Source of the DNA: Eggerthellaceae bacterium
Lineage (GTDB): Bacteria > Actinomycetota > Coriobacteriia > Coriobacteriales > Eggerthellaceae
Assembly: GCA_017459925.1 (NCBI GenBank)
Contig: JAFUCC010000029.1
Coordinates: forward strand, 1 to 33,537
Length of the DNA: 33,537 bases
Direction: 5' to 3'
Of the stretch, positions 6,642 to 33,267 are shown in pieces; positions within the stretch are counted from its first letter, which is position 1; every line of letters begins with the position of its first letter. Under the pieces are notes generated by a model. It worked only from the letters and a program-made list of their open reading frames with translations, had not been told where the DNA came from and ran no database searches. The translations under genes and the position numbers were made by a program.

Positions 6642-7427
6642 ATGGGATCTTTGATCGAAGTCAACAACCTGGCGTTCCGCTATTCGGCCGAGCGGGGCAA
6701 CGTGTTCCAGGGCATTACGTTCACGGTGGAAAGGGGCGAGATGTTCACGTTGCTCGGCCCCAACGGCGCGGGCAAGTCGACGCTGCTGAACTGCATCGCC
6801 GGCTTGGCAGCACCGAGCGAAGGCTACGTGAAGGTGAACGACAAACCGGTAGAAAGCTACTCCACACGCGAGCTGGCCAAGCATATCGGCTACGTGCGCC
6901 AGCACATCGCGGTGACCTACGGTTACACGGTTCGCGAGTACCTGGTCATGGGCGCAGCACCGCGTATCGGCATGTTCGCCACGCCCAAACAGGAAGACTA
7001 CGAGCGCGTAGAAGAGGCCATCGAGGACCTGGAACTGCAGAAGCTGGCCGACCGCACGGTGTCGCACCTGTCGGGAGGCGAGCGCCAGCGCGTCGCCGTG
7101 GCGCGCTCCATCGTGCAGAACCCCGAAGTCATCCTGTTCGACGAGCCCACGAGCGCGCTCGACTTCGGCAACCAAATCCGCGTCATGCGCACCTGCAAGC
7201 ACCTGACCGAACGCGGCTATGCCGTGGTCATGACCACGCACAACCCCGACCAGCCCATACTGCTCGGCGGCAAGGTGGCCATGCTGAACGCCGACGGCAC
7301 GCTGGCCGTAGGCGACGCCGAAACCACGCTGACGAGCGAACGCCTAAGCGAGCTGTACGGCACCGAGCTGCACCTGGTCCATGTCGACGAAGTCGACCGC
7401 GTGGCCTGCGTGTCGAGCAAGCTGTAG
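6642..7427 (+). CDS. FecE-type ABC transporter ATP-binding protein
   Basis: A 261-residue cytoplasmic ATPase. It has Walker A GPNGAGKST, Q-loop YVRQH, signature LSGGERQR, Walker B VILFDEPTSALDFG and the switch His in TTHNPDQ. Its length and the C-terminal ELYGTEL motif are typical of the FecE/BtuD branch. AAGGAGG lies five bases upstream. The stop codon forms one end of a palindromic repeat shared with the convergent gene. Confidence 0.93.
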   Translation: MGSLIEVNNLAFRYSAERGNVFQGITFTVERGEMFTLLGPNGAGKSTLLNCIAGLAAPSEGYVKVNDKPVESYSTRELAKHIGYVRQHIAVTYGYTVREYLVMGAAPRIGMFATPKQEDYERVEEAIEDLELQKLADRTVSHLSGGERQRVAVARSIVQNPEVILFDEPTSALDFGNQIRVMRTCKHLTERGYAVVMTTHNPDQPILLGGKVAMLNADGTLAVGDAETTLTSERLSELYGTELHLVHVDEVDRVACVSSKL

Positions 7428-7455
7428 CCCAAAGGGGATACTCCCCATTGGGCTA
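7425..7455. repeat. Palindromic repeat, family P4, spanning two stop codons
   Basis: TAGCCCAA(A)GGGGA (7425-7438) pairs with TCCCCATTGGGCTA (7442-7455), one mismatch, loop of three. The first TAG is the stop of the rightward ATPase gene; the last CTA is the stop (TAG) of the leftward methyltransferase gene. A nearly identical copy is at 24385-24415. It probably serves as a bidirectional terminator hairpin, although there is no T run. Confidence 0.75.
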
Positions 7456-16797: not shown

Positions 16798-17220
16798 ATG
16801 AAGATCAGCGCACGCAACCAGATCAAGGGCACCGTCAAGTCCGTCAAGGAGGGCGCCGTCAACGCGGTCGTCGTCATCTGCCGCGGCAACCACAACCCCA
16901 TCAAGGCCGACATCACCATGGAGAGCGTGAAGGAGCTCGGCCTGGAAGAGGGCAAGGAGTGCTACGCCGTCGTCAAGGCCACGAACGTCATGTTCGCCAC
17001 GCAGAAGATCGAGGGCATCAGCGCCCGCAACCAGATCGAGGGCACGGTCGTCAGCGTGAAGGAAGGCGCCGTGAACGGCCACGTGACCATCGAAGACGCC
17101 GACGGCGTGAAGATCTCCGGCTCCATCACCAACGAGTCCATCGAGAGCCTGGGCCTGAAGGAAGGTGGCAAGGCCGTCGCCATCATCAAGGCCACCGACG
17201 TCATGGTCGCCGTCGACTAA
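16798..17220 (+). CDS. Tandem Mop/TOBE molybdate-binding protein (molbindin)
   Basis: A 140-residue protein made of two Mop/TOBE repeats of about 70 residues. Each opens with ISARNQI(K/E)GTV and SVKEGAVN and ends with VKATNVM or IKATDVM, the pattern of cytoplasmic molbindins that store or buffer molybdate or tungstate. GGAAG lies about nine bases before the ATG. A strong terminator follows. Its place beside a MoeA-like gene and a HTH/PBP gene supports a role in Mo/W homeostasis. The last 63 coding bases are duplicated at 18667-18729, beyond the fic gene. Confidence 0.92.
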   Translation: MKISARNQIKGTVKSVKEGAVNAVVVICRGNHNPIKADITMESVKELGLEEGKECYAVVKATNVMFATQKIEGISARNQIEGTVVSVKEGAVNGHVTIEDADGVKISGSITNESIESLGLKEGGKAVAIIKATDVMVAVD

Positions 17221-17273
17221 CGACCAGCCGACACCCGAGCGCATCCCAGCGCCCCGCAGAGATGCGGGGCGCT
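17158..17273 (+). repeat. Direct repeat copy 1 (3' end of mop plus terminator)
   Basis: The segment from the last 21 codons of mop through its terminator recurs at 18667-18783, differing at three single bases, one inserted base and the terminator loop. The two copies bracket the fic gene. Confidence 0.85.
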
Positions 17274-18636: not shown

Positions 18637-18729
18637 ATGAAACAGGTACCGGGTATGCGTTCCACTAAGGAAGGCGGCAAGGCCGTCGCCATCATCAAGG
18701 CCACCGATGTCATGGTCGCCGTCGACTAA
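18637..18729 (+). pseudogene. Truncated mop fragment
   Basis: A 30-codon ORF. The first ten codons (MKQVPGMRST) are unrelated to mop; the remaining 20 codons match the C-terminal end of the second Mop repeat, in frame to the same stop codon. It lacks nearly all of the domain and cannot bind molybdate. It appears to be the by-product of the duplication that brackets fic. Confidence 0.7.
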
Positions 18730-18783
18730 CGACCGGCCGACACCCGAGCGCCATCCCAGCGCCCCGCAATTTCGCGGGGCGCT
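18667..18783 (+). repeat. Direct repeat copy 2 (3' end of mop plus terminator)
   Basis: This corresponds to 17158-17273 and includes the stop codon and downstream hairpin. Similarity begins abruptly at 18667 and ends with the hairpin at 18783. Confidence 0.85.
18758..18783. terminator. Hairpin at the end of the long transporter operon
   Basis: AGCGCCCCGC (18758-18767) pairs with GCGGGGCGCT (18774-18783). It is the duplicated mop terminator and now lies 30 bases beyond the stop of the leftward methyltransferase gene. No minus-strand T run follows. Confidence 0.6.
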
Positions 18784-23504: not shown

Positions 23505-23536
23505 AAACGGACGGGCGCGATGAATCGCGCCCCTAC
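23505..23536. repeat. Palindromic repeat, family P3
   Basis: GGGCGCGAT (23513-23521), GA, ATCGCGCCC (23524-23532), followed by CTAC. It lies between the ATPase and MoxR genes and matches the perfect copy at 31074-31101. Confidence 0.65.
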
Positions 23537-23562
23537 GGAGGCTTTTGAACCAAGTCTCGCCA

Positions 23563-24384: not shown

Positions 24385-24415
24385 TAGCCCAATGGGGAGT
24401 ATCCCCATTGGGCTA
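24385..24415. repeat. Palindromic repeat, family P4, perfect copy
   Basis: TAGCCCAATGGGGA (24385-24398) pairs without mismatch to TCCCCATTGGGCTA (24402-24415), loop GTA. The last three bases are the stop codon (TAG, minus strand) of the preceding permease. The other copy is at 7425-7455. Confidence 0.8.
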
Positions 24416-25693
24416 TTCCCAGCCCCTTACGTGTCGGGCCATCAGCACCACGAACAGCGGCAACGCCACGACGCTCACGACCGAGCCGATGGCCAGGCCC
24501 TCGCCGATGAACGGCAGAAGGTCGGTGATGTCGCGGCAGATGAGCAGCAAGATGGGGCTGATGCACAGATTCCCGATGAGCTGCTTGTTGAACTCGCACC
24601 CGAACACGCTGCGCGAGATGAACGGCACCACGAGCGATATGAGCGCCACCGCGCCCACGTGAATCGTGGCGGCCAGAATCATGATGGCGCCGCACACGAT
24701 GGCGAGCGCCCGCATGCGCGACGAGTTCACGCCGAGCAGGCGCGCTTCCTGGTCGTCGAACGCCAACGCGTTCAGCTTGTGGCGGTTCATCCAGATGGGG
24801 ACGAACGACGCCAGCGCGGCGATGCCGAGCGTCACCCACGAGATGAGCGACGTGCTGACCGTGAGCATCTGCGAAAGCGTGTAGAAGACCAGGTAGTCGT
24901 CTTCTTCCATGACGAACAGCGTCACGTACGACACGACGAACCCGATGAGCTGGCTGAAAATCGAGCCGATGAGCAGCATGGTCACGATGTCGTAGGGCTT
25001 TCCCGCGCCCGACAGCCTCTTGCCGGCCAACAGCACGACCACCAGGATGACCGCTCCGAAGCCGTAGCACATGGCGTAGCGCTCGTAGAGCATGGACGGC
25101 GCCGCCGCATGGTAGATGGCGACGAGGATCATGAGCCCCAGGCTGACGCCGCTCGTCACGCCGAGCATGCCCGGGCCAGCAATGGGATTGCGGAACACGT
25201 TCTGGTACAGCATGCCGCTGACCGCCAGGAGCTCGGCGCAGATGAACGTGATGCCCAGAACCGACGCGCGCCGGGGCACGGCCCAGTATCCGGGGACGTT
25301 CTCGCGAATCCACTCGTTGGAATGCGCCGGGAACTGGTGCGTGAGGTTCGCGAGCGCGTTGTGCGCTTGCTCGAACAGCACCGAGCCCACCTGCAGCGGC
25401 GTGTAGATGTCGTAGCGCTGGCTGTACGGGTACAAGTCGCCCGCCGCGCCCATGATGCCCAGCGACAGGAACGCCAGCACGATGATGGCGATGACGCAGG
25501 CGAACACCTTCGTCGCGAAGGCGAAGCGCTCGGAAGACAGCAGCGCGTTCGACTCCTTCATGCTTATGGCGCGCTTCACGGTGGCACCCGTGACATGCGT
25601 GCGCTTGGGTGCAGCAGCGCCGTTACGCATGCGCGCGATGTCGGACGCGCCGTACGACAGGTTCAACCTGCTGCGCTTACCGAAACTCGCCAC
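24413..25693 (-). CDS. FecCD-type ABC transporter permease, second subunit
   Basis: A 426-residue multi-pass membrane protein, longer than usual because of a polar N-terminal region of about 60 residues and an external insert after the first membrane segment. Family motifs are MLYQNVFRNPIAGPGMLGVT, the coupling stretch AFDDQEARLLGVN, and VGAVALISLVVPFISR. The start is a GTG at 25693 with AGGGGG five bases upstream, overlapping the previous permease gene by 17 bases. With that gene it probably forms a heterodimeric channel, unlike the usual FecCD homodimer. Confidence 0.9.
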   Translation of the reverse strand: MASFGKRSRLNLSYGASDIARMRNGAAAPKRTHVTGATVKRAISMKESNALLSSERFAFATKVFACVIAIIVLAFLSLGIMGAAGDLYPYSQRYDIYTPLQVGSVLFEQAHNALANLTHQFPAHSNEWIRENVPGYWAVPRRASVLGITFICAELLAVSGMLYQNVFRNPIAGPGMLGVTSGVSLGLMILVAIYHAAAPSMLYERYAMCYGFGAVILVVVLLAGKRLSGAGKPYDIVTMLLIGSIFSQLIGFVVSYVTLFVMEEDDYLVFYTLSQMLTVSTSLISWVTLGIAALASFVPIWMNRHKLNALAFDDQEARLLGVNSSRMRALAIVCGAIMILAATIHVGAVALISLVVPFISRSVFGCEFNKQLIGNLCISPILLLICRDITDLLPFIGEGLAIGSVVSVVALPLFVVLMARHVRGWE

Positions 25694-26957
25694 GGGAACC
25701 CCCTTTCCCGCGCAAGGCCGTCACCAGGAACACGGCGGCTCCGCCGATCGAGATGAACATGCCCACCATGGTCTCGTAGCTCGACCCCAGCGTCATGAGC
25801 AGCAGCACGTACGCGCCGAGCACGAACACCGCGCCGAGCACGGTGGCCGCCGGCAGCAGGTAGCTGAAGTTCGGGCCGACGAGTCGCCGTGCCAAGTGCG
25901 GCACGAGGAAGCCCACGAAGCCGACCATGCCGCAAAACGAGATGAGGATGGCCGTGAGCAGCGTGCACAGGCCCACGACGAGCACCTGCATGCGCTTGGC
26001 GTCGACGCCGAGCGCGCGGGCCTCGCCTTCCCCGAGCGACAGCGCCTGCATGCGGCGGCGCAGCTTCATGATGACGATGAACGTGATGACGATGGGAATG
26101 CCCACCAGCACGAGGTCGATCCACGTGTAGTTGCGGTAGAACGACGCGATTTGCAGCTCGGTGAGCAGTTCGGCTTTGGCGCCGTATGGGTTCGAGTACA
26201 CGTAGAAGTAGCGGATGGTGTTGCTGAGCGCGCCCATGACGCCGCCGATGATCTGCCCGGTGATGATGAGCATGATAGGCGACGAGAACCCGCCGCGCCC
26301 CACGCGCATGACGAGCAGCACGCAGCCCACGACGAGCAAACACCCGATGAACGATATGACCGAAAGGCTGTAGTTCGATACAAGCTGCGCCCAGAACCCG
26401 TCGTCGGACCCTGCGTACGTGGACAGCCAGGGCACGTTCGTCCCTTCGTCGTCGACGAAGAACACAACCCAGAGCATCATGCCCGCCGTCGCGCCGCTCA
26501 TGACGCCGAGCGTCGAAGGCGACACGAGCGCGTTGCGGAACGACCCTTGGTACACCGCGCCGCAGAGCGCCAACCCAGCCCCCGTCATGGCGATGATGAG
26601 GTAGCGGACCATGGTGCTGGAAAACGCAACCGGGGCATCGTCGTGCCCGAGGAACACGCTGACCAGCCCGTTCACGTTGCTCGCAAGGTCGTCGACGAAC
26701 CACGAGAACGAGTACCCCGCCGCGTAGCCGCCCTGGTGCAGGTTGGGGTTGAACAGGTTCTTGGGAACTACGAGCCCGAAGAAGTACAGCACCACCAACA
26801 CGATGCACAGCACGAAGATGACCTGCGTGCGGCGATCGACCTTGTGGCCCTCGTCGACCGACTCGGCATAGACGTTGCGTTCGTCGCCGTCGAGGCGGAT
26901 GTTGTCAGCCGTCACGGCTGGTTGCTCGGCACTTGGACGTTTGCGTTTGCGAGCCAT
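25677..26957 (-). CDS. FecCD-type ABC transporter permease, first subunit
   Basis: A 426-residue membrane protein with a polar, charged N-terminal region of about 40 residues. Hallmarks are GLALCGAVYQGSFRNALVSP, then STLGVMSGATAG, SLGEGEARALGVD and GMVGFVGFLVPHLARR. The ATG overlaps the stop codon of the upstream surface-protein gene by one base (TGATG), so translation is probably coupled. An external insert near YAGSDDGFWAQL lengthens it relative to BtuC. It partners with the permease at 24413 and the ATPase at 23563. Confidence 0.9.
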   Translation of the reverse strand: MARKRKRPSAEQPAVTADNIRLDGDERNVYAESVDEGHKVDRRTQVIFVLCIVLVVLYFFGLVVPKNLFNPNLHQGGYAAGYSFSWFVDDLASNVNGLVSVFLGHDDAPVAFSSTMVRYLIIAMTGAGLALCGAVYQGSFRNALVSPSTLGVMSGATAGMMLWVVFFVDDEGTNVPWLSTYAGSDDGFWAQLVSNYSLSVISFIGCLLVVGCVLLVMRVGRGGFSSPIMLIITGQIIGGVMGALSNTIRYFYVYSNPYGAKAELLTELQIASFYRNYTWIDLVLVGIPIVITFIVIMKLRRRMQALSLGEGEARALGVDAKRMQVLVVGLCTLLTAILISFCGMVGFVGFLVPHLARRLVGPNFSYLLPAATVLGAVFVLGAYVLLLMTLGSSYETMVGMFISIGGAAVFLVTALRGKGGSRGEFR

Positions 26958-29197
26958 CAGAACCGGATTCCCCCTTTCCGCTTCTGCTCCTCTTGGGATG
27001 AGGCCTCCTCGCTTGCCGCCTCGGCTTCCAGGGCGACGAGCTTGCGCCCACGTGCACGCCACAGCAGGCATGCCGCCACGACGACGAGCGCAAACCCGCC
27101 GATGACGGCCATGCCGCCTACAGACGAGAACACTTCCTCTTGCGTGGCGCCGGCGTCGAGGCCGCCTGTCGGCAGTTGGCCGGTTTCCACGATGGTCGAG
27201 GAAACCGCCTGCACAGGCTGCGCCGTTTGCCCTGATTGGCCGGCAGTTGCTTGGGCGCCTTCCTGCTCGGGCTCGTCGACCACGATTTCGTAAATGCCAT
27301 ACAGGGCGCACTTGGCCCCGAACGAGCCCCAGTTCTGCTTTTCCAGCAAGATGTGGTCGGTGTACAGGGGCTCTTTGTCGCTCATGCGCGGCGACCAGCC
27401 CAAAAACCTGTTTTTTACACCGCCGATCTCGACGATGTCACCAGGCCGTATGCGCTCGTTCGCCACGTCGATGAGGTCGAGCTCGGGGCTGTACGTGTAC
27501 GTCCCCGCCTCTTCGCCGGTGTAGAGGTACCCGTCTTGGCTCATGCGGTAATACGTCAGCGACAAGCCGATGGTCGTTTCGGTTTCGTCTTCCGCAGGGA
27601 CCTCGCCGTACAGGCCCCATTCGGTGAACAGGTCGTCGAAGGCAATGGGAAGCGAAGCGTATACCCAGGCTTCTTCGCCAGCGACAGCCGTCTTCCAGGC
27701 GACGGGGCTCTCCTCGCGCACGGAGGTGTACGCCGACTGCGCAGGGTACGACACCGACACGTCGGGACTCACGGGAACATCGACGTAATCGCCGAAATCG
27801 AACGGCCCGGCATCCGCTCTGAACGCGCCCTTGCCGCACGTCGCGCTTATGGTGTCCTCGTCGACCTCATAGGTTCCCGAAGCGCCTTCGTACACGCCGA
27901 TGGCGTGGCCGAGCGTGGTCGTCGCAGACAACGCGCCTTCTTGCGAAACGGAGCCCGCGAAACCCTCATCGCACCAGATGCCATAGGCGTCGAGCGGAAG
28001 CGCGTAATCGCTGCGCACGAACACGTGGGTCGGCACGATGTTTTCAGGAAGACCCGCCACGCCAGCTGCCATCGGGTCGGTGAACGCCCACACGTTCAAC
28101 CCGTTTTCCAATTCGAGCGGAGAGGCATAGTACACTTCGGCCCCGTAGACGAAGCCGTCTGCGTCTTCGCGGTCGTCGTAGCGCGCATTCGCCAGGAAGC
28201 GGGCGCACATGTCGTCGTACCAGCCAAGCGACGGGTCGACTGCAATTTCCATGAGTTCGGAATTGGTCGTCTTCGTCGTGCCGAACACCGTCGTCGGGTA
28301 CCCGATGGCACCCTGCATCACCTGGGCCGAACGGTTGTCGACGGCAATCGACGAGTCGTCCGACACGGCGATGGTGCAAGCGCCGTCCGTTCCCTTCGCG
28401 TGAACGCCGGCAGCCGTGGAGGCGCCGAACGCATCGCGCGCAGAAGCCGACTCGACCGAAATGGCCGACCCATCTTGCAACGTCAGCGACCCGCCCGTTT
28501 CCACGCCCGCCAACTCGACGCCCGGCATGATCGTGCTCGTGCCGGCATAGGCCACGCTCAGATCGACATTGGAAAGCGCCAAGTTGCTTCCCTCTTCGGC
28601 GGAAACACCGCGATACCCGGCCGTCGCGCTCTGCGTCGTCTCGGGCTGGGCGCCAACCGTCACCGATACGGTTCCGTTCGAAATCGCGTATTCGCCTGCG
28701 CCGAGTCCGATACCGTCATGCGCGAGCCCCTGCCCGCCGCGTGCGCCGGAGCCAACGGCATCAATCGTCAGCGCATGGCCCTGCAAGTCAACCGCCAGCT
28801 TGTCCGCAGACGACTGCAGCGCACCAGACTCAAGGTCCTCATACACGTACAGCGTCGCCCCATCTGCCGCCGACGCAAACGCAGATTCCATATCGTCATA
28901 CCAAGCCCCAGCCAAGGCGTCGTACACAACTCCTTGCGCCTCCTCGGCGGGAACCGCGCTTCCGCCCCCAGGGTTTGCAGCGCACCCTGACAGCATGACC
29001 GCAATAGCCATTAACATCACGATAGTTGCTCCTGGGACGGCCAGCCCGGAGGGAGGGGTGCGCCGCTTGCGCAGGCGGAAGGAGGGCAAGGGAAGGGAAA
29101 GCGGTTTCCCGCCGAGCAGCCGTAGGCGCACCCCTCCCTCCGGGCTGGCCGTCCCAGGAGCAACATGTTCACGTTGTCGCAGCAAACCCTTCCCCAT
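26957..29197 (-). CDS. Large surface lipoprotein with beta-helix-like region and C-terminal membrane anchor
   Basis: 746 residues if translated from the ATG at 29197, which follows the previous stop codon directly (TAGATG). The lipobox MLSGC puts the lipidated Cys at residue 72, far too deep, because a 140-bp inverted-repeat element (29025-29164) supplies residues 12-58. Alternative starts are GTG at 29020 and ATG at 29017, for which the element itself offers AGGAG 8 or 11 bases upstream. Residues about 130-310 show repeated strands (ISNGTVSV, LSNVDLSV, SLTLQDGSAISV) suggesting a right-handed beta-helix. NRFLGWSP resembles Listeria-Bacteroides repeats. A single membrane segment near the end (AVIGGFALVVVAACLLW) is followed by a charged tail. 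It probably presents substrate to the importer; this is inference from operon position. Confidence 0.75.
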   Translation of the reverse strand: MGKGLLRQREHVAPGTASPEGGVRLRLLGGKPLSLPLPSFRLRKRRTPPSGLAVPGATIVMLMAIAVMLSGCAANPGGGSAVPAEEAQGVVYDALAGAWYDDMESAFASAADGATLYVYEDLESGALQSSADKLAVDLQGHALTIDAVGSGARGGQGLAHDGIGLGAGEYAISNGTVSVTVGAQPETTQSATAGYRGVSAEEGSNLALSNVDLSVAYAGTSTIMPGVELAGVETGGSLTLQDGSAISVESASARDAFGASTAAGVHAKGTDGACTIAVSDDSSIAVDNRSAQVMQGAIGYPTTVFGTTKTTNSELMEIAVDPSLGWYDDMCARFLANARYDDREDADGFVYGAEVYYASPLELENGLNVWAFTDPMAAGVAGLPENIVPTHVFVRSDYALPLDAYGIWCDEGFAGSVSQEGALSATTTLGHAIGVYEGASGTYEVDEDTISATCGKGAFRADAGPFDFGDYVDVPVSPDVSVSYPAQSAYTSVREESPVAWKTAVAGEEAWVYASLPIAFDDLFTEWGLYGEVPAEDETETTIGLSLTYYRMSQDGYLYTGEEAGTYTYSPELDLIDVANERIRPGDIVEIGGVKNRFLGWSPRMSDKEPLYTDHILLEKQNWGSFGAKCALYGIYEIVVDEPEQEGAQATAGQSGQTAQPVQAVSSTIVETGQLPTGGLDAGATQEEVFSSVGGMAVIGGFALVVVAACLLWRARGRKLVALEAEAASEEASSQEEQKRKGGIRF
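29025..29164. mobile_element. 140-bp element with perfect 40-bp terminal inverted repeats
   Basis: Bases 29025-29064 are the exact reverse complement of 29125-29164; the arms start GTTGCTCCTGGGACGG. The 60-bp centre has no ORF of its own. It interrupts the signal-peptide coding region of the surface lipoprotein. Removing 141 bases (the element plus one flanking base) restores a normal lipoprotein signal peptide in frame. No second copy was noticed in the window. A MITE or similar non-autonomous insertion is the likeliest explanation. Confidence 0.75.
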
Positions 29198-31060
29198 CTA
29201 CTTCACCGTGCACAACGCCGTGTAGCTCGTATTGAAATCGGCAAGGGCGCTATCCGCCGAACCGCGGTAAAACGTCGCGTAGAACTGGTCGACGTACGAT
29301 TTGCACCGCTCGAGGTTGCCGTCGTTCTTGAACAGCCCTTCCACCCACGGCGACACGAGGAAGCTTTCCACCGTGCCGTCTGCCCAGCTGCCGGACACGC
29401 CCGTCGGCATGACTTGCACCCGGTACGGGCTGCCGACGTTGTACAGGCCGTCGACCTTGTTCGCCGACGCGACGACGCGGCGCGCCATGTCATCGTCTTT
29501 GGTTATGAGGATGGGAAAGCCCTCGTCGCCCACCTTCAGCCAACTCGCCGCCGTCGCCACCGACGAGGGGGCGAACCACAGCGCTGAGGGAGCGGTGCGC
29601 GACGATACGCGGGTCGTGTCGGTGATGAGGTTGCGCGTGCCGCCGGGCACGACCAGGTACGGCTCGCTTGCCATGCCCGACCCGCCGGCGACGGGCTTCA
29701 CGCCCTCGTAGGCGTTGTCGACCACGCCGGCCACCTGCAGGTAGTACGCGAGCAACGGGAAGTTCTTCGATTCTATGGTTAACGACAGTCCCGCACCCTC
29801 CGATGCGTCGATGGGCTCGCCGTCGAGGTACAGCGTGGCGTTGCCATAGCGGCGGATGGCCACCGAGCTCGCGTTCACGTCGGCTGTCCACGAGTCGATG
29901 AACGCCGTGACATAGCGCACGCTGCTGAGCTGGGTCGTCTCGATGCCGCTGTCGGCCGTTCCCTGGTACACGCCCGGGAAGCTCGTGCCGTATTCCATCT
30001 TGTACGAGTAGCCGCCGTTCGTTTGCAAGCATGCGTCGATGACGCTGTCGTGCTGGCTTGCGTACTCGTCGGACATGGCCAACGCGTCGAACTGCGTCTC
30101 GGCGCCAGCCAGCAGCTCGCCTACGATCGACACCGCCTTCACGACGTCGTCGTCGGGCGTGTCTGTCGCCCCGAGCCGCGGTAGCACGACCACGTCGATA
30201 CCTGCGGCGGCAAGGCGCGCTTGCTCGGCGTCGTCGAGCTTCACGAGGGCGTTGTCGGTCAGCACGACATCGGGCTCGGCGGCGATCACCGCGTCGATGT
30301 CGACCTCGTACCCCGTGTCTGCATCTCCACGCCACGCGATGGGCAAGTCCTCGATGCCCTCGCCGGGGAAGAGGCGCTGGTCGGTCACGGACGACGCCCA
30401 CTCGCTGTCCGCCGCGACGAGCGCACCGCGGCCCGCCAGCATTTGCACGATCGTCGCATACTGGCCGGCGGCAGCCACATGTTGCACGTCTTCGGGCAGC
30501 TCGTAATCGGTGCCCGTGGTGTCGAACGTCTCGCCCGCGCCTCCGATGCCACCTGCCAGGTTCTGCAAATCGCCCGGATCGCCTTCGCCGCCAGTCGAGG
30601 TGTCCGACGAGGTCTCCCCCTCGCCCTCGCCTTCGCCGCTCGTGGCGCTGCCCGTCTTCTCGCTTTCGCCCGCCACCTCGTTGTCGCCTTCGGCGTACGA
30701 GCGCTGGTTGCCCGTGCTCGCATTGTCGGTGTCGGCGCTGTCGGCACGTTGCTCGCGGATGTCGGTCGTTCCGTCTTCCGCTGCGCTCTGCTCGTACACG
30801 GGAAGCGTTTGCTCCTGGTCGTCGACACGGTCGCTGTCGCTGATGGTGTTGGTCGTGCGCGTGGAGTCTTCGGGAGCGTCCGGCGTCTCGCGATAAATGG
30901 GATTGGCCGATTCGTCCAACTCGCCGAGCTGCTCGTCCTCGACGTGCTGCGTGAGCACGCTCGTGAACTTGCATCCGCACATGCCTGCCGAAAGCACCAG
31001 CAGCGCGGCGAGCAAGAGAACCGCCAGGATTCGTCGTGTATGTTTATGATTGCTACCCAT
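29198..31060 (-). CDS. Lipoprotein, TroA-like substrate-binding protein with acidic linker
   Basis: A 620-residue exported protein. The signal peptide has two Arg at 9-10, a Leu-rich core and a lipobox region AGMCGC, with Cys28 or Cys30 lipidated. Residues 35-190 are a low-complexity stretch rich in Asp, Glu, Ser, Thr and Gly. The C-terminal 430 residues look like a FecB-type binding fold: QHVAAAGQYATIVQMLAG, VIAAEPDVVLTD, a lobe with LYLDGEPIDA, and a closing helix around YVDQFYATFYRG that echoes the other binding proteins. The Shine-Dalgarno is weak. A P3 palindrome lies just upstream. It abuts the surface lipoprotein gene. Confidence 0.82.
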   Translation of the reverse strand: MGSNHKHTRRILAVLLLAALLVLSAGMCGCKFTSVLTQHVEDEQLGELDESANPIYRETPDAPEDSTRTTNTISDSDRVDDQEQTLPVYEQSAAEDGTTDIREQRADSADTDNASTGNQRSYAEGDNEVAGESEKTGSATSGEGEGEGETSSDTSTGGEGDPGDLQNLAGGIGGAGETFDTTGTDYELPEDVQHVAAAGQYATIVQMLAGRGALVAADSEWASSVTDQRLFPGEGIEDLPIAWRGDADTGYEVDIDAVIAAEPDVVLTDNALVKLDDAEQARLAAAGIDVVVLPRLGATDTPDDDVVKAVSIVGELLAGAETQFDALAMSDEYASQHDSVIDACLQTNGGYSYKMEYGTSFPGVYQGTADSGIETTQLSSVRYVTAFIDSWTADVNASSVAIRRYGNATLYLDGEPIDASEGAGLSLTIESKNFPLLAYYLQVAGVVDNAYEGVKPVAGGSGMASEPYLVVPGGTRNLITDTTRVSSRTAPSALWFAPSSVATAASWLKVGDEGFPILITKDDDMARRVVASANKVDGLYNVGSPYRVQVMPTGVSGSWADGTVESFLVSPWVEGLFKNDGNLERCKSYVDQFYATFYRGSADSALADFNTSYTALCTVK

Positions 31061-31073
31061 TCGAAGTCATCCC

Positions 31074-31101
31074 GTAGGGGCGCGATGAATCGCGCCCCTA
31101 C
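31074..31101. repeat. Palindromic repeat, family P3, perfect copy
   Basis: GTAGGGGCGCGAT (31074-31086), GA, ATCGCGCCCCTAC (31089-31101): a perfect 13-bp stem 13 bases upstream of the start codon at 31060, in the leader of that gene. It could restrict ribosome access. Confidence 0.8.
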
Positions 31102-31116
31102 AAAACGAAACGCAAG

Positions 31117-31175: not shown

Positions 31176-32939
31176 CTAGCGGTTCGAAGCCGCGAGCAGG
31201 GCGTTCACGCTCGACGCGTTGTCGGCGATCCACTTCACGCCATCGCTGAGCTTCTTCTCGACGGCGGCCTTGTCGTAATCGGACACGTCATCGGTCGTCC
31301 AAGCGGTCAGCTCGGAACCGGCGGCGTCCCAGTTGCGCACGCCGTCCATCGCGTTGTCGATGGCGTCAGCCAAGTCGGACTCGTTCAGGTGGTAGAAGTT
31401 GTCGTAGTAGTAGGCGATCCACTGGTCCTGATCGATGTACTCGGGGTACAGGCAGCCGAGGATGCGGCCGATGTTCTGGGCGTTCTCGACGGAATTCATG
31501 ACGACGCCGTACATCGAGCCGGCGGAGGAGGTGTCGCTGTTCACCCAGTACGTCTTCTTCTTCATGTCATCGGTGAACGATGCCAGGATGTCCTCGGTGC
31601 TGGCGATGTTCTCCTGGCCGGCCTGGCTGCCGAGCAGGATGAGGTCCACGTCGGCGAGCTGGTCCTGCGTCACCGTGACGGTCGGGGCAGATGCCGTCTG
31701 GCCACCACCCTGGCCACCACCCTGGCCGCCGCCCTGGCCGCCGCCTTGGCCGCCCTGGCCGCCTGCTGCTGCTGCGCTGCCGCTGCCGGCCGCTGCCGCG
31801 CTGCCAGATGCAGATGCGGAGCTCGCGCTGCCAGATGCCGCTGCGGCGCTTCCGCTGCTGGCTGCAGCCGCGCTACCAGACGCTGCTGCAGCGCTGCCGG
31901 ACGCAGATGCGGCGCTCGCGCTGCCGGATGCTGCCGCCGCGCTGCCGCTGCCCTGGCCCTGGCCGCTCTGCTGCTGCGCGGACTCGTCAACCGGGTCGGC
32001 CTCCATGCCGTCGGCGATGTTGGTCGCTACGAACTGCGTGGCCTCGAGGTAACGGTTTGCCGTGGCAGTGCCCTCGGCAACGCCGGTCTGCGTCAACTTG
32101 TACGTGCCGGTGGCGGCGTCGTAATCGCTCACGAGGGCGACCTTCTTCAGGTCAGCGCCGTTCAGCTGCGACAGGACATAACCCTGCGTGCCCTTCACGT
32201 ACTGCTCGTAGGCCTTCGCGATGTCGGTAGCGCTGCCGTAACGCAGCTTCGCCGTGCCGTTGCTCTCGGCGACGATGTCGTCAGCGGCCTCGGCCAGGTT
32301 GTACATCGTGTCGACCATCGTGTAGATGTTCGTGTTGTCGTACTTGATGCCCACCGGGCTGTAGTCGGACACGCCGTTGGCCTCGCCCGCCGCGGGCGCG
32401 TAGTTGGCCTGGCTGTAGTCGACCGCCTCGCCCTGGCCCGTGCCCACGATGATGTCGGGCAGCATGTTCCACGCGGCATCGGAGTCGGCGTCGGCGCCGT
32501 ACTCGAACATGGCGGCCGCCGGGCCACCCTGACGCGTGGTGTACACGAGCGTCGGCTGGGCGTTCTCGTTGCCATTCTCGATATTCAGCACTGCGTTGTA
32601 CATATAGGGGTTCGGCGCAGAGTTGATGTCGGTGCCCATGATGTAGTACACGGGGGTCGACCAATCCAGCACGCCCACGGACGTCCACGCGTTGTTCGTC
32701 GAGATGCCGGAGATGCCCAAGATCTCGGGAGCCGGCTCGGCAGCGCGGTACGCAGCCGCCGTCACGTACCCTTCGACGTCGGCCGCAGCCGTGGAAGCCG
32801 CGGACCCGGAAGCCGAAGCGCTCGATGCAGCGGACGACGTCGTGCCCGACGCGCACCCGACGACGAGCGCCGAGCCCAACGCCAAGGACGCGGCAACCGC
32901 CATCGCCTTGCTCGCCACTTTCAAATTCGGTTTATACAA
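31176..32939 (-). CDS. Lipoprotein, two-lobed binding protein split by Ser-Ala/Gly-Gln linker
   Basis: A 587-residue lipoprotein starting at TTG (32939), chosen because AAAGGG lies seven bases upstream and it gives a normal signal peptide with three Lys, a hydrophobic core and lipobox VVGC (Cys29). A Ser-Ala linker follows to about 53. Residues 65-315 form one lobe (PEILGISGISTNN, LPDIIVGTG, KKVALVSDY). Residues 321-415 are a low-complexity linker of Ser-Ala and GGGQ repeats. Residues 420-587 form a second lobe (ADVDLILLGSQAG, WIAYYYDNFYHL) of the kind seen in FecB-type proteins. Placing such a long linker between the two lobes is odd. It heads the long operon, after an AT-rich promoter region, with its own terminator. 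Confidence 0.78.
   Translation of the reverse strand: MYKPNLKVASKAMAVAASLALGSALVVGCASGTTSSAASSASASGSAASTAAADVEGYVTAAAYRAAEPAPEILGISGISTNNAWTSVGVLDWSTPVYYIMGTDINSAPNPYMYNAVLNIENGNENAQPTLVYTTRQGGPAAAMFEYGADADSDAAWNMLPDIIVGTGQGEAVDYSQANYAPAAGEANGVSDYSPVGIKYDNTNIYTMVDTMYNLAEAADDIVAESNGTAKLRYGSATDIAKAYEQYVKGTQGYVLSQLNGADLKKVALVSDYDAATGTYKLTQTGVAEGTATANRYLEATQFVATNIADGMEADPVDESAQQQSGQGQGSGSAAAASGSASAASASGSAAAASGSAAAASSGSAAAASGSASSASASGSAAAAGSGSAAAAGGQGGQGGGQGGGQGGGQGGGQTASAPTVTVTQDQLADVDLILLGSQAGQENIASTEDILASFTDDMKKKTYWVNSDTSSAGSMYGVVMNSVENAQNIGRILGCLYPEYIDQDQWIAYYYDNFYHLNESDLADAIDNAMDGVRNWDAAGSELTAWTTDDVSDYDKAAVEKKLSDGVKWIADNASSVNALLAASNR
31697..31965. repeat. Low-complexity in-frame repeats in the binding-protein gene
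   Basis: 12-bp tandem units (GGCCACCACCCT and variants, about 31700-31760) encode GGGQ repeats. The adjoining GC-rich stretch encodes Ser-Ala-Gly repeats. Similar Ser-Ala coding repeats occur near 5215-5275 and 11515-11590. Such tracts are prone to length change. Confidence 0.75.
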
Positions 32940-33267
32940 ACAAATCACCCTTTCTCTTCCCATGCCCGTATGCAATCGCGGTGGCTTCGCGCGATTAGAG
33001 CTATGTGAGTATATTAGTGATTGAGAATAATGCCATACGTTTAAGAGGATGAAATCACCACACTTGCTCACGCTGCTGGTATGAGCAGCTCTCATCAGGC
33101 ATTACGGGCAATTCCGAACCGTGATGAAATGTGACGACATTGGGCTGTACAGCTTCGACAACGACGTGTTCTTCGCGCTCGTACGGGACTGTTCGTCTTA
33201 CGAAATCGCCGGAGCCTGCGACGCGAGCGCTTCGGCCAGCCCCTTCCCGATTTCGCGCTATGAGAAA
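32940..33267. other. Intergenic region upstream of the long operon
   Basis: No supported gene. On the minus strand TATACT (near 33012-33017) is a plausible -10 element for the operon; no strong -35 was found. AT-rich sequence at 33000-33055 probably holds the promoter. ORFs in 33055-33300 on both strands lack ribosome-binding sites and resemble nothing known. Confidence 0.45.

Follow-up and report, generated by a model that had tools for sequence, protein, structure and literature searches.

A hairpin in an Eggerthellaceae lipoprotein reading frame, probably one copy of a genus-specific family of palindromic elements

In Rickettsia, palindromic elements (RPE) occur in frame inside protein genes, and the copies of an RPE family have sequence in common over the whole palindrome. 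The intercistronic REP between malE and malF of E. coli places a hairpin directly after the binding-protein gene of an ABC-transporter operon. REPs, including GTAG- and CGTC-tagged palindromes, are dispersed, lie downstream of genes among co-directional or convergent ORFs, and are sometimes intragenic (Di Nocera 2013, PMC3733652). Long perfect inverted repeats within coding sequence are also found in the mitochondria of Nematomorpha (PMC6649704), and template switching is reported to homogenise the arms of hairpins, invert their spacers and extend their stems (Monttinen and Loytynoja 2022, PMC8794818; Abraham and Hazkani-Covo 2021, PMC8604942). The perfect stems of long hairpins are debated: they may be kept by selection through compensatory mutation, or by template switching, in which both sides are written together.

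Here we analysed a window of 33,537 nt from an Eggerthellaceae bacterium (contig JAFUCC010000029.1, assembly GCA_017459925.1). The hairpin it contains probably represents a genus-specific palindromic element of REP-like character. About 200 such hairpins, with one core, unrelated arms and several orthologous sets, form a natural experiment that can separate selection from template switching.

A hairpin with a shared core and a dispersed family

The perfect 40-bp inverted repeat described in the initial annotation is real: its arms (Table 1) match at 40/40 bases across a spacer of 60 nt, and no perfect inverted repeat listed for the window is longer. The very stable transcript hairpin claimed there was borne out as well, as the minus-strand RNA folds at -120.2 kcal/mol (shuffles -63.1 +/- 3.9, z -14.6) and the DNA at -69.3 (z -13.4). 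Rfam covariance models gave zero matches in the window, and a known RNA family was rejected as a candidate for that reason.

Table 1. Features of the hairpin and the surrounding operon-like run, in window positions
Feature	Positions	Strand	Remark
Whole palindromic element, 140 nt	29025..29164	-	core in sense with operon; match to covariance model R1
5' arm, 40 nt, locus-specific	29125..29164	-	inner part G-rich, GGAGGGAGGGGTG
3' arm, 40 nt	29025..29064	-	perfect complement of 5' arm
Conserved core motif 1	29109..29125	-	CTACGGCTGCTCGGCGG
Variable loop of core	29079..29108	-	
Conserved core motif 2	29062..29078	-	CCGCCTGCGCAAGCGGC
746-aa ORF	26957..29197	-	in frame through element; lipobox Cys is residue 72 (codon 28982-28984)
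Upstream gene, substrate-binding lipoprotein	29198..31060	-	weak Peripla_BP_2 match, below Pfam's cut-off
Downstream FecCD-type permease gene	25677..27311	-	same operon-like run
GGTGA, possible Shine-Dalgarno for ATG 29197	29203..29207	-	from sequence
GGAGGGAGGG in arm before in-frame GTG 29131, possible internal start	29132..29141	-	from sequence

A 156-bp segment matches other sites in the same genome and many in nine sister species of its genus, mostly in the middle of the hairpin. With a covariance model (R1) we found 204 copies in 12 of the 15 genomes of one uncultured Eggerthellaceae genus from the ruminant gut, a lower bound like all copy numbers here, which come from draft metagenome assemblies. 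The window copy, which belongs to the model's own training set, was matched at 29040-29147 on the minus strand (95.5 bits, E 2.5e-20). A search of the genome for other copies had been proposed, and the model has 14 matches there, two of them on redundant contigs. In a family-wide sample, 8 of 119 genomes match, and of these only two, with one match each, belong to other genera; judged by these matches, the hairpin family appears almost absent outside the genus. The named records are uncultured Eggerthellaceae MAGs, with titles that include goat, sheep and red deer. The copy in a genome of another genus (G139, L314) looks like one on a small contig of G007 (L123), which may reflect contamination or recent transfer. 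The window's own assembly is redundant, with near-identical duplicated stretches between contigs C106 and C181 and between C101 and C145 of G000.

The copies are all built alike. A locus-specific arm is followed by an inner G-rich stretch and CCTACRGCTGCTCGGCGG; a variable loop of some 25-30 nt and CCGCCTGCGCAAGCGGC come next, and the complementary arm closes the element. The core (51-67 nt in most copies) is near-invariant and asymmetric across copies, a constancy that would imply selection or a binding protein. That the hairpin is an assembly artefact, a snap-back chimera, is barely credible. Perfect inverted repeats are typical of chimeras and the source MAG has 8% contamination, but the conserved core recurs with the same design in at least five independently produced MAGs, and orthologous sites carry copies in as many as four species.

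We regard the hairpin family as a new form of palindromic repeat rather than part of a named family, because it differs from REPs in its length, its ends, its unshared stem and the lack of a RAYT in its flanks. It is 3-4 times longer than REPs (PMC3733652), with a median element of 120 nt and median arms of 31 nt against 20-40 bp, and differs in its asymmetric conserved core and in arms that are private to each locus. Instead of the unpaired GTAG/CGTC end tag, a REP-like TAC end (GTA on the other strand) is found in a minority of copies (19/91), 15 of the 91 having GTCC and TAC together; the window copy ends in ACAT and TATC and has no tag. Where REPs share a stem sequence, the outer arms here are no more alike than shuffled sequence (identity between copies 0.306 vs 0.301). 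The location, downstream of genes with co-directional or convergent neighbours, is as in REPs.

It is unlikely that these are conventional REPs or MITEs moved by a transposase such as Y1 (RAYT), with arms that simply decay. GTCC...TAC would read as a GTAG-like end from the opposite strand, Y1 transposases are present in 12 of the 15 genomes, and empty sites exist. Nonetheless, none of the 12 Y1_Tnp loci examined carries the element, which led us to reject RAYT mobilisation; several of these loci are flanked by other palindromes instead, G007 lacks any Y1 match despite its 17 copies, the end motif is missing from the window copy, and the arms co-vary rather than decay (see below). The conserved terminal inverted repeats of a MITE are missing, as the arms are unconserved, and no consistent target-site duplication was seen by eye in the flanks.

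Other described systems are alike in part. RPEs resemble the family in their in-frame insertion, found here in the window ORF and four other ORFs, two with empty orthologues, but only the core is common to the copies of the hairpin family, and most copies are intergenic. The malE-malF REP has the same placement as the window hairpin and an unrelated sequence, a likeness by position only. In the Nematomorpha palindromes, both arms encode conserved protein sequence and there is no shared core, unlike in the hairpin family (PMC6649704). A literature search for such elements in Eggerthella returned nothing relevant.

Private arms and concerted change

Although the arms are private, their two sides change together. 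Over 91 copies, the covariation score was 0.693, compared with 0.152 +/- 0.007 after shuffling and about 0.1 in slid controls; two-sided changes (828 vs 248) were counted in an alignment fitted to the structure model, and these counts therefore lean towards structure. The core stem co-varies too (TGC/GCA, TCC/GGA, TAC/GTA), with one inner-stem pair seen as G-C, C-G and A-U. Orthologous copies could be aligned at the gyrB-gyrA junction in four species and at six other sites. They gave 59 two-sided against 35 one-sided changes, with 53 of the 59 complementary afterwards, in pairwise comparisons that share sequences within a site and are not independent. Matching between arms at the gyrB-gyrA site extends even to single-base indels.

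Concerted change of this kind could come from a structured RNA under selection, in which compensatory mutation keeps the arms paired and the hairpin serves as a terminator, processing site or protein-binding RNA. The near-invariant core with its covarying inner stem is consistent with such an RNA, as are the sense bias and post-stop position described below. Under transcript selection, however, G-U intermediates should exceed A-C, and this excess is absent: arm mismatches comprised 48 G-T and 67 A-C (p 0.09), or 43 and 51 after closer trimming of the arms (p 0.47). Fourteen copies have perfect outer arms of at least 25 bp, the element is missing at many orthologous sites, and the sequence after the hairpin is only slightly richer in T than background (at least 5 T of 8 in 7% of copies, background 2%). 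No intrinsic terminator was scored at the window element, and this candidate was rejected for lack of a T-run. We regard a selected RNA as rather unlikely. Because G-T mismatches are no commoner than A-C, the arms appear to point to hairpin-templated correction of the DNA rather than to selection at the RNA level.

It is quite likely that the arms stay complementary through intra-hairpin template switching during replication, a process favoured by the missing wobble excess together with a templated insertion. The hairpin would form during replication, and the polymerase would copy one arm from the other; the same switching may also extend arms into host sequence, invert or replace the core and bring in nearby sequence. 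The arm homogenisation, loop or spacer inversion, stem extension and simultaneous compensatory changes are like those of described template-switch hairpins, but the latter are single or short and lie in RNA genes and yeast, whereas here a whole interspersed family with a conserved core displays these features (PMC8794818, PMC8604942).

Footprints of this kind are visible at individual loci. At the ABC-F site of the window's genome (G000), the 3' arm is an inverted copy of the coding end, and the arms pair at 61/67 positions. Conservation of the C-terminal codons of the ABC-F gene spans the genus and reaches other genera of the family, and the inverted copy is likewise missing from relatives that have no element. 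The hairpin at the same site in G007 has its core in the opposite orientation, and in the G007 element half of the core has given way to 33 bp copied exactly from the next gene, with the junction at a shared GGCTGC; this single templated insertion could be an assembly error. In G006, host codons are repeated inverted in the linker of a 2-hydroxyglutaryl-CoA dehydratase activator.

Capture of host sequence is seen at only a few such loci, while arm correction looks general. In a gene-end permutation test for an inverted copy of upstream coding sequence, only 2 of 51 copies exceeded the null; the general idea that every arm derives by inversion from the end of the upstream gene was unsupported by this result and is kept only for the loci described. 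At several empty sites (L116, L114), the arms have no host counterpart, so most arms came with the element or drifted past recognition. In a tentative overall model, less likely than not, only the core would be inherited and spread, and the arms would be made or remade at each site by hairpin-templated replication, which would leave them private, self-correcting, able to capture host coding sequence and translatable in frame.

Genomic position and the lipoprotein reading frame

Copies typically lie close behind a stop codon, most of them in the sense orientation. With gene calls from a simple codon-usage caller made for this analysis, the upstream gene was co-directional in 63 of 89 copies (63:26, p 1e-4), the median distance was 14 nt after the stop codon, and divergent intergenic regions were rare (9 copies). 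In E. coli, ribosome stalling is reported for REPs that lie within 15 nt of a stop codon (PMC12306157). Somewhat short of an even chance, the transcript hairpin may act as an intercistronic REP that damps the downstream gene, protects the mRNA of the upstream binding protein, or both. In the window, the element starts 33 nt past the stop codon of the binding-protein gene and is intercistronic, in the order substrate-binding lipoprotein gene, element, second lipoprotein-like ORF and FecCD permease. Further upstream, another lipoprotein-like ORF (31176-33095) has a Ser/Ala/Gly-rich repeat region at 31762-31951.

Besides the window ORF, in-frame copies lie in at least four other proteins, which we take, by recognition of their sequences, to be a 2-hydroxyglutaryl-CoA dehydratase activator (G006), a U32 peptidase with the copy in its linker (G010, G005), a membrane protein (G005) and a TsaE-TsaB-like fusion (G002). 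Orthologues of the activator and the U32 peptidase have no element, or have other palindromes at the same linker. The hairpin family also shows a route by which palindromes can give bacterial proteins new segments at linkers. The U32 peptidase and activator linkers (L233, L231, L207, L205) look like hot spots for in-frame palindromes, with different long palindromes per species.

The initial annotation proposed that the window element had been inserted into a lipoprotein signal peptide. Insertion holds in a broad sense, given the dispersed family, element-free sites at sister loci of other copies and the other in-frame copies, but that the element broke a pre-existing signal peptide is conjectural, and treating the hairpin as a single element overlooked the family, its private arms and its post-stop-codon position. 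Deleting 141 bases is what the frame needs, as had been noted, but the element proper is 140 nt. The flanks of the window copy have zero matches in 14 congeneric genomes, and the suggested comparison with relatives yielded neither an orthologue nor an empty site for it in the genus or family. In other genera, homologous sequence takes the form of internal repeats in very large surface proteins, starting after the lipobox; since the flanks are also unmatched, the window copy has no empty site to read. The mature part of the 746-aa product likewise resembles repeat domains of large surface proteins.

The N-terminus of the ORF reads MGKGLLRQREH, 47 residues and then IVMLMAIAVMLSGC, and the lipobox Cys lies, as had been stated, at residue 72 from the first ATG. 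Because a few copies sit in frame inside proteins, a signal-peptide reading of the window copy is plausible but unproven. ATG 29197 abuts the TAG (29198-29200) of the upstream co-directional gene and is preceded by a GGTGA of its own; within the element, a GGAGG stands ahead of GTG 29131. Read-through gives RLRKRRTPPSGLAVPGATIVMLMAIAVMLSGC, with a basic n-region from the element core, which encodes RLRKRR directly before the hydrophobic stretch, whereas a start after the element gives MLMAIAVMLSGC, without basic residues. The arm had also been put forward as a replacement ribosome-binding site; this is possible, as the GGAG ahead of GTG 29020 belongs to the arm, but not special, as other starts have SD-like sites. 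In our judgement, which is not a measurement, read-through from ATG 29197 is the most likely start, at just under an even chance; an internal GTG start and a start after the element are each improbable, and a broken gene is quite improbable. The read-through product would contain LLGGKPLSLPLPSFR-type peptides, and lipoprotein export may persist with a lengthened n-region that includes RLRKRR from the core.

It is very improbable that the 47 residues genuinely belong to the lipoprotein and are maintained by selection. They are in frame without stops, the RLRKRR they contain precedes the hydrophobic stretch, and in-frame copies persist in the U32 peptidase orthologues of G005 and G010, where an indel keeps the frame. 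However, the same nucleotide element is intergenic at most loci and is read in different frames and strands, and homologues of the lipoprotein, in which conservation of the segment would have marked it as a real protein part, do not have it.

Other palindromes and repeats in the window

Further repeats were seen in and around the window. Another palindrome lies at 1401-1500 (AATGAGTATCAGGACGTTCC...), with a short relative (AATGAGCAGCAGGAACGTCCTGTGACTCATT) in frame in an activator-protein linker of the same genome (L198). Palindromes of the GTAGGGGCKCGATKMATCG type at 1346-1374, 23512-23537 and 31078-31105 look like classical GTAG-tagged REPs, and a third palindromic repeat family (TAGCCCAAWGGGGA...CCCCATTGGGCTA) is represented at 7425-7455 and 24385-24415. 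RAYT-REP pairs separate from the hairpin family also occur, with Y1 transposase genes (L060, L066, L067) flanked by short palindromes (TGAACATCACCCC.GGGGTGATGTTCA and others). Lastly, an 85-bp repeat, 96% identical between 17158-17242 and 18667-18751, forms the ends of two adjacent small genes (EGGKAVAIIKATDVMVAVD), which probably encode tandem Mop/TOBE-like proteins.
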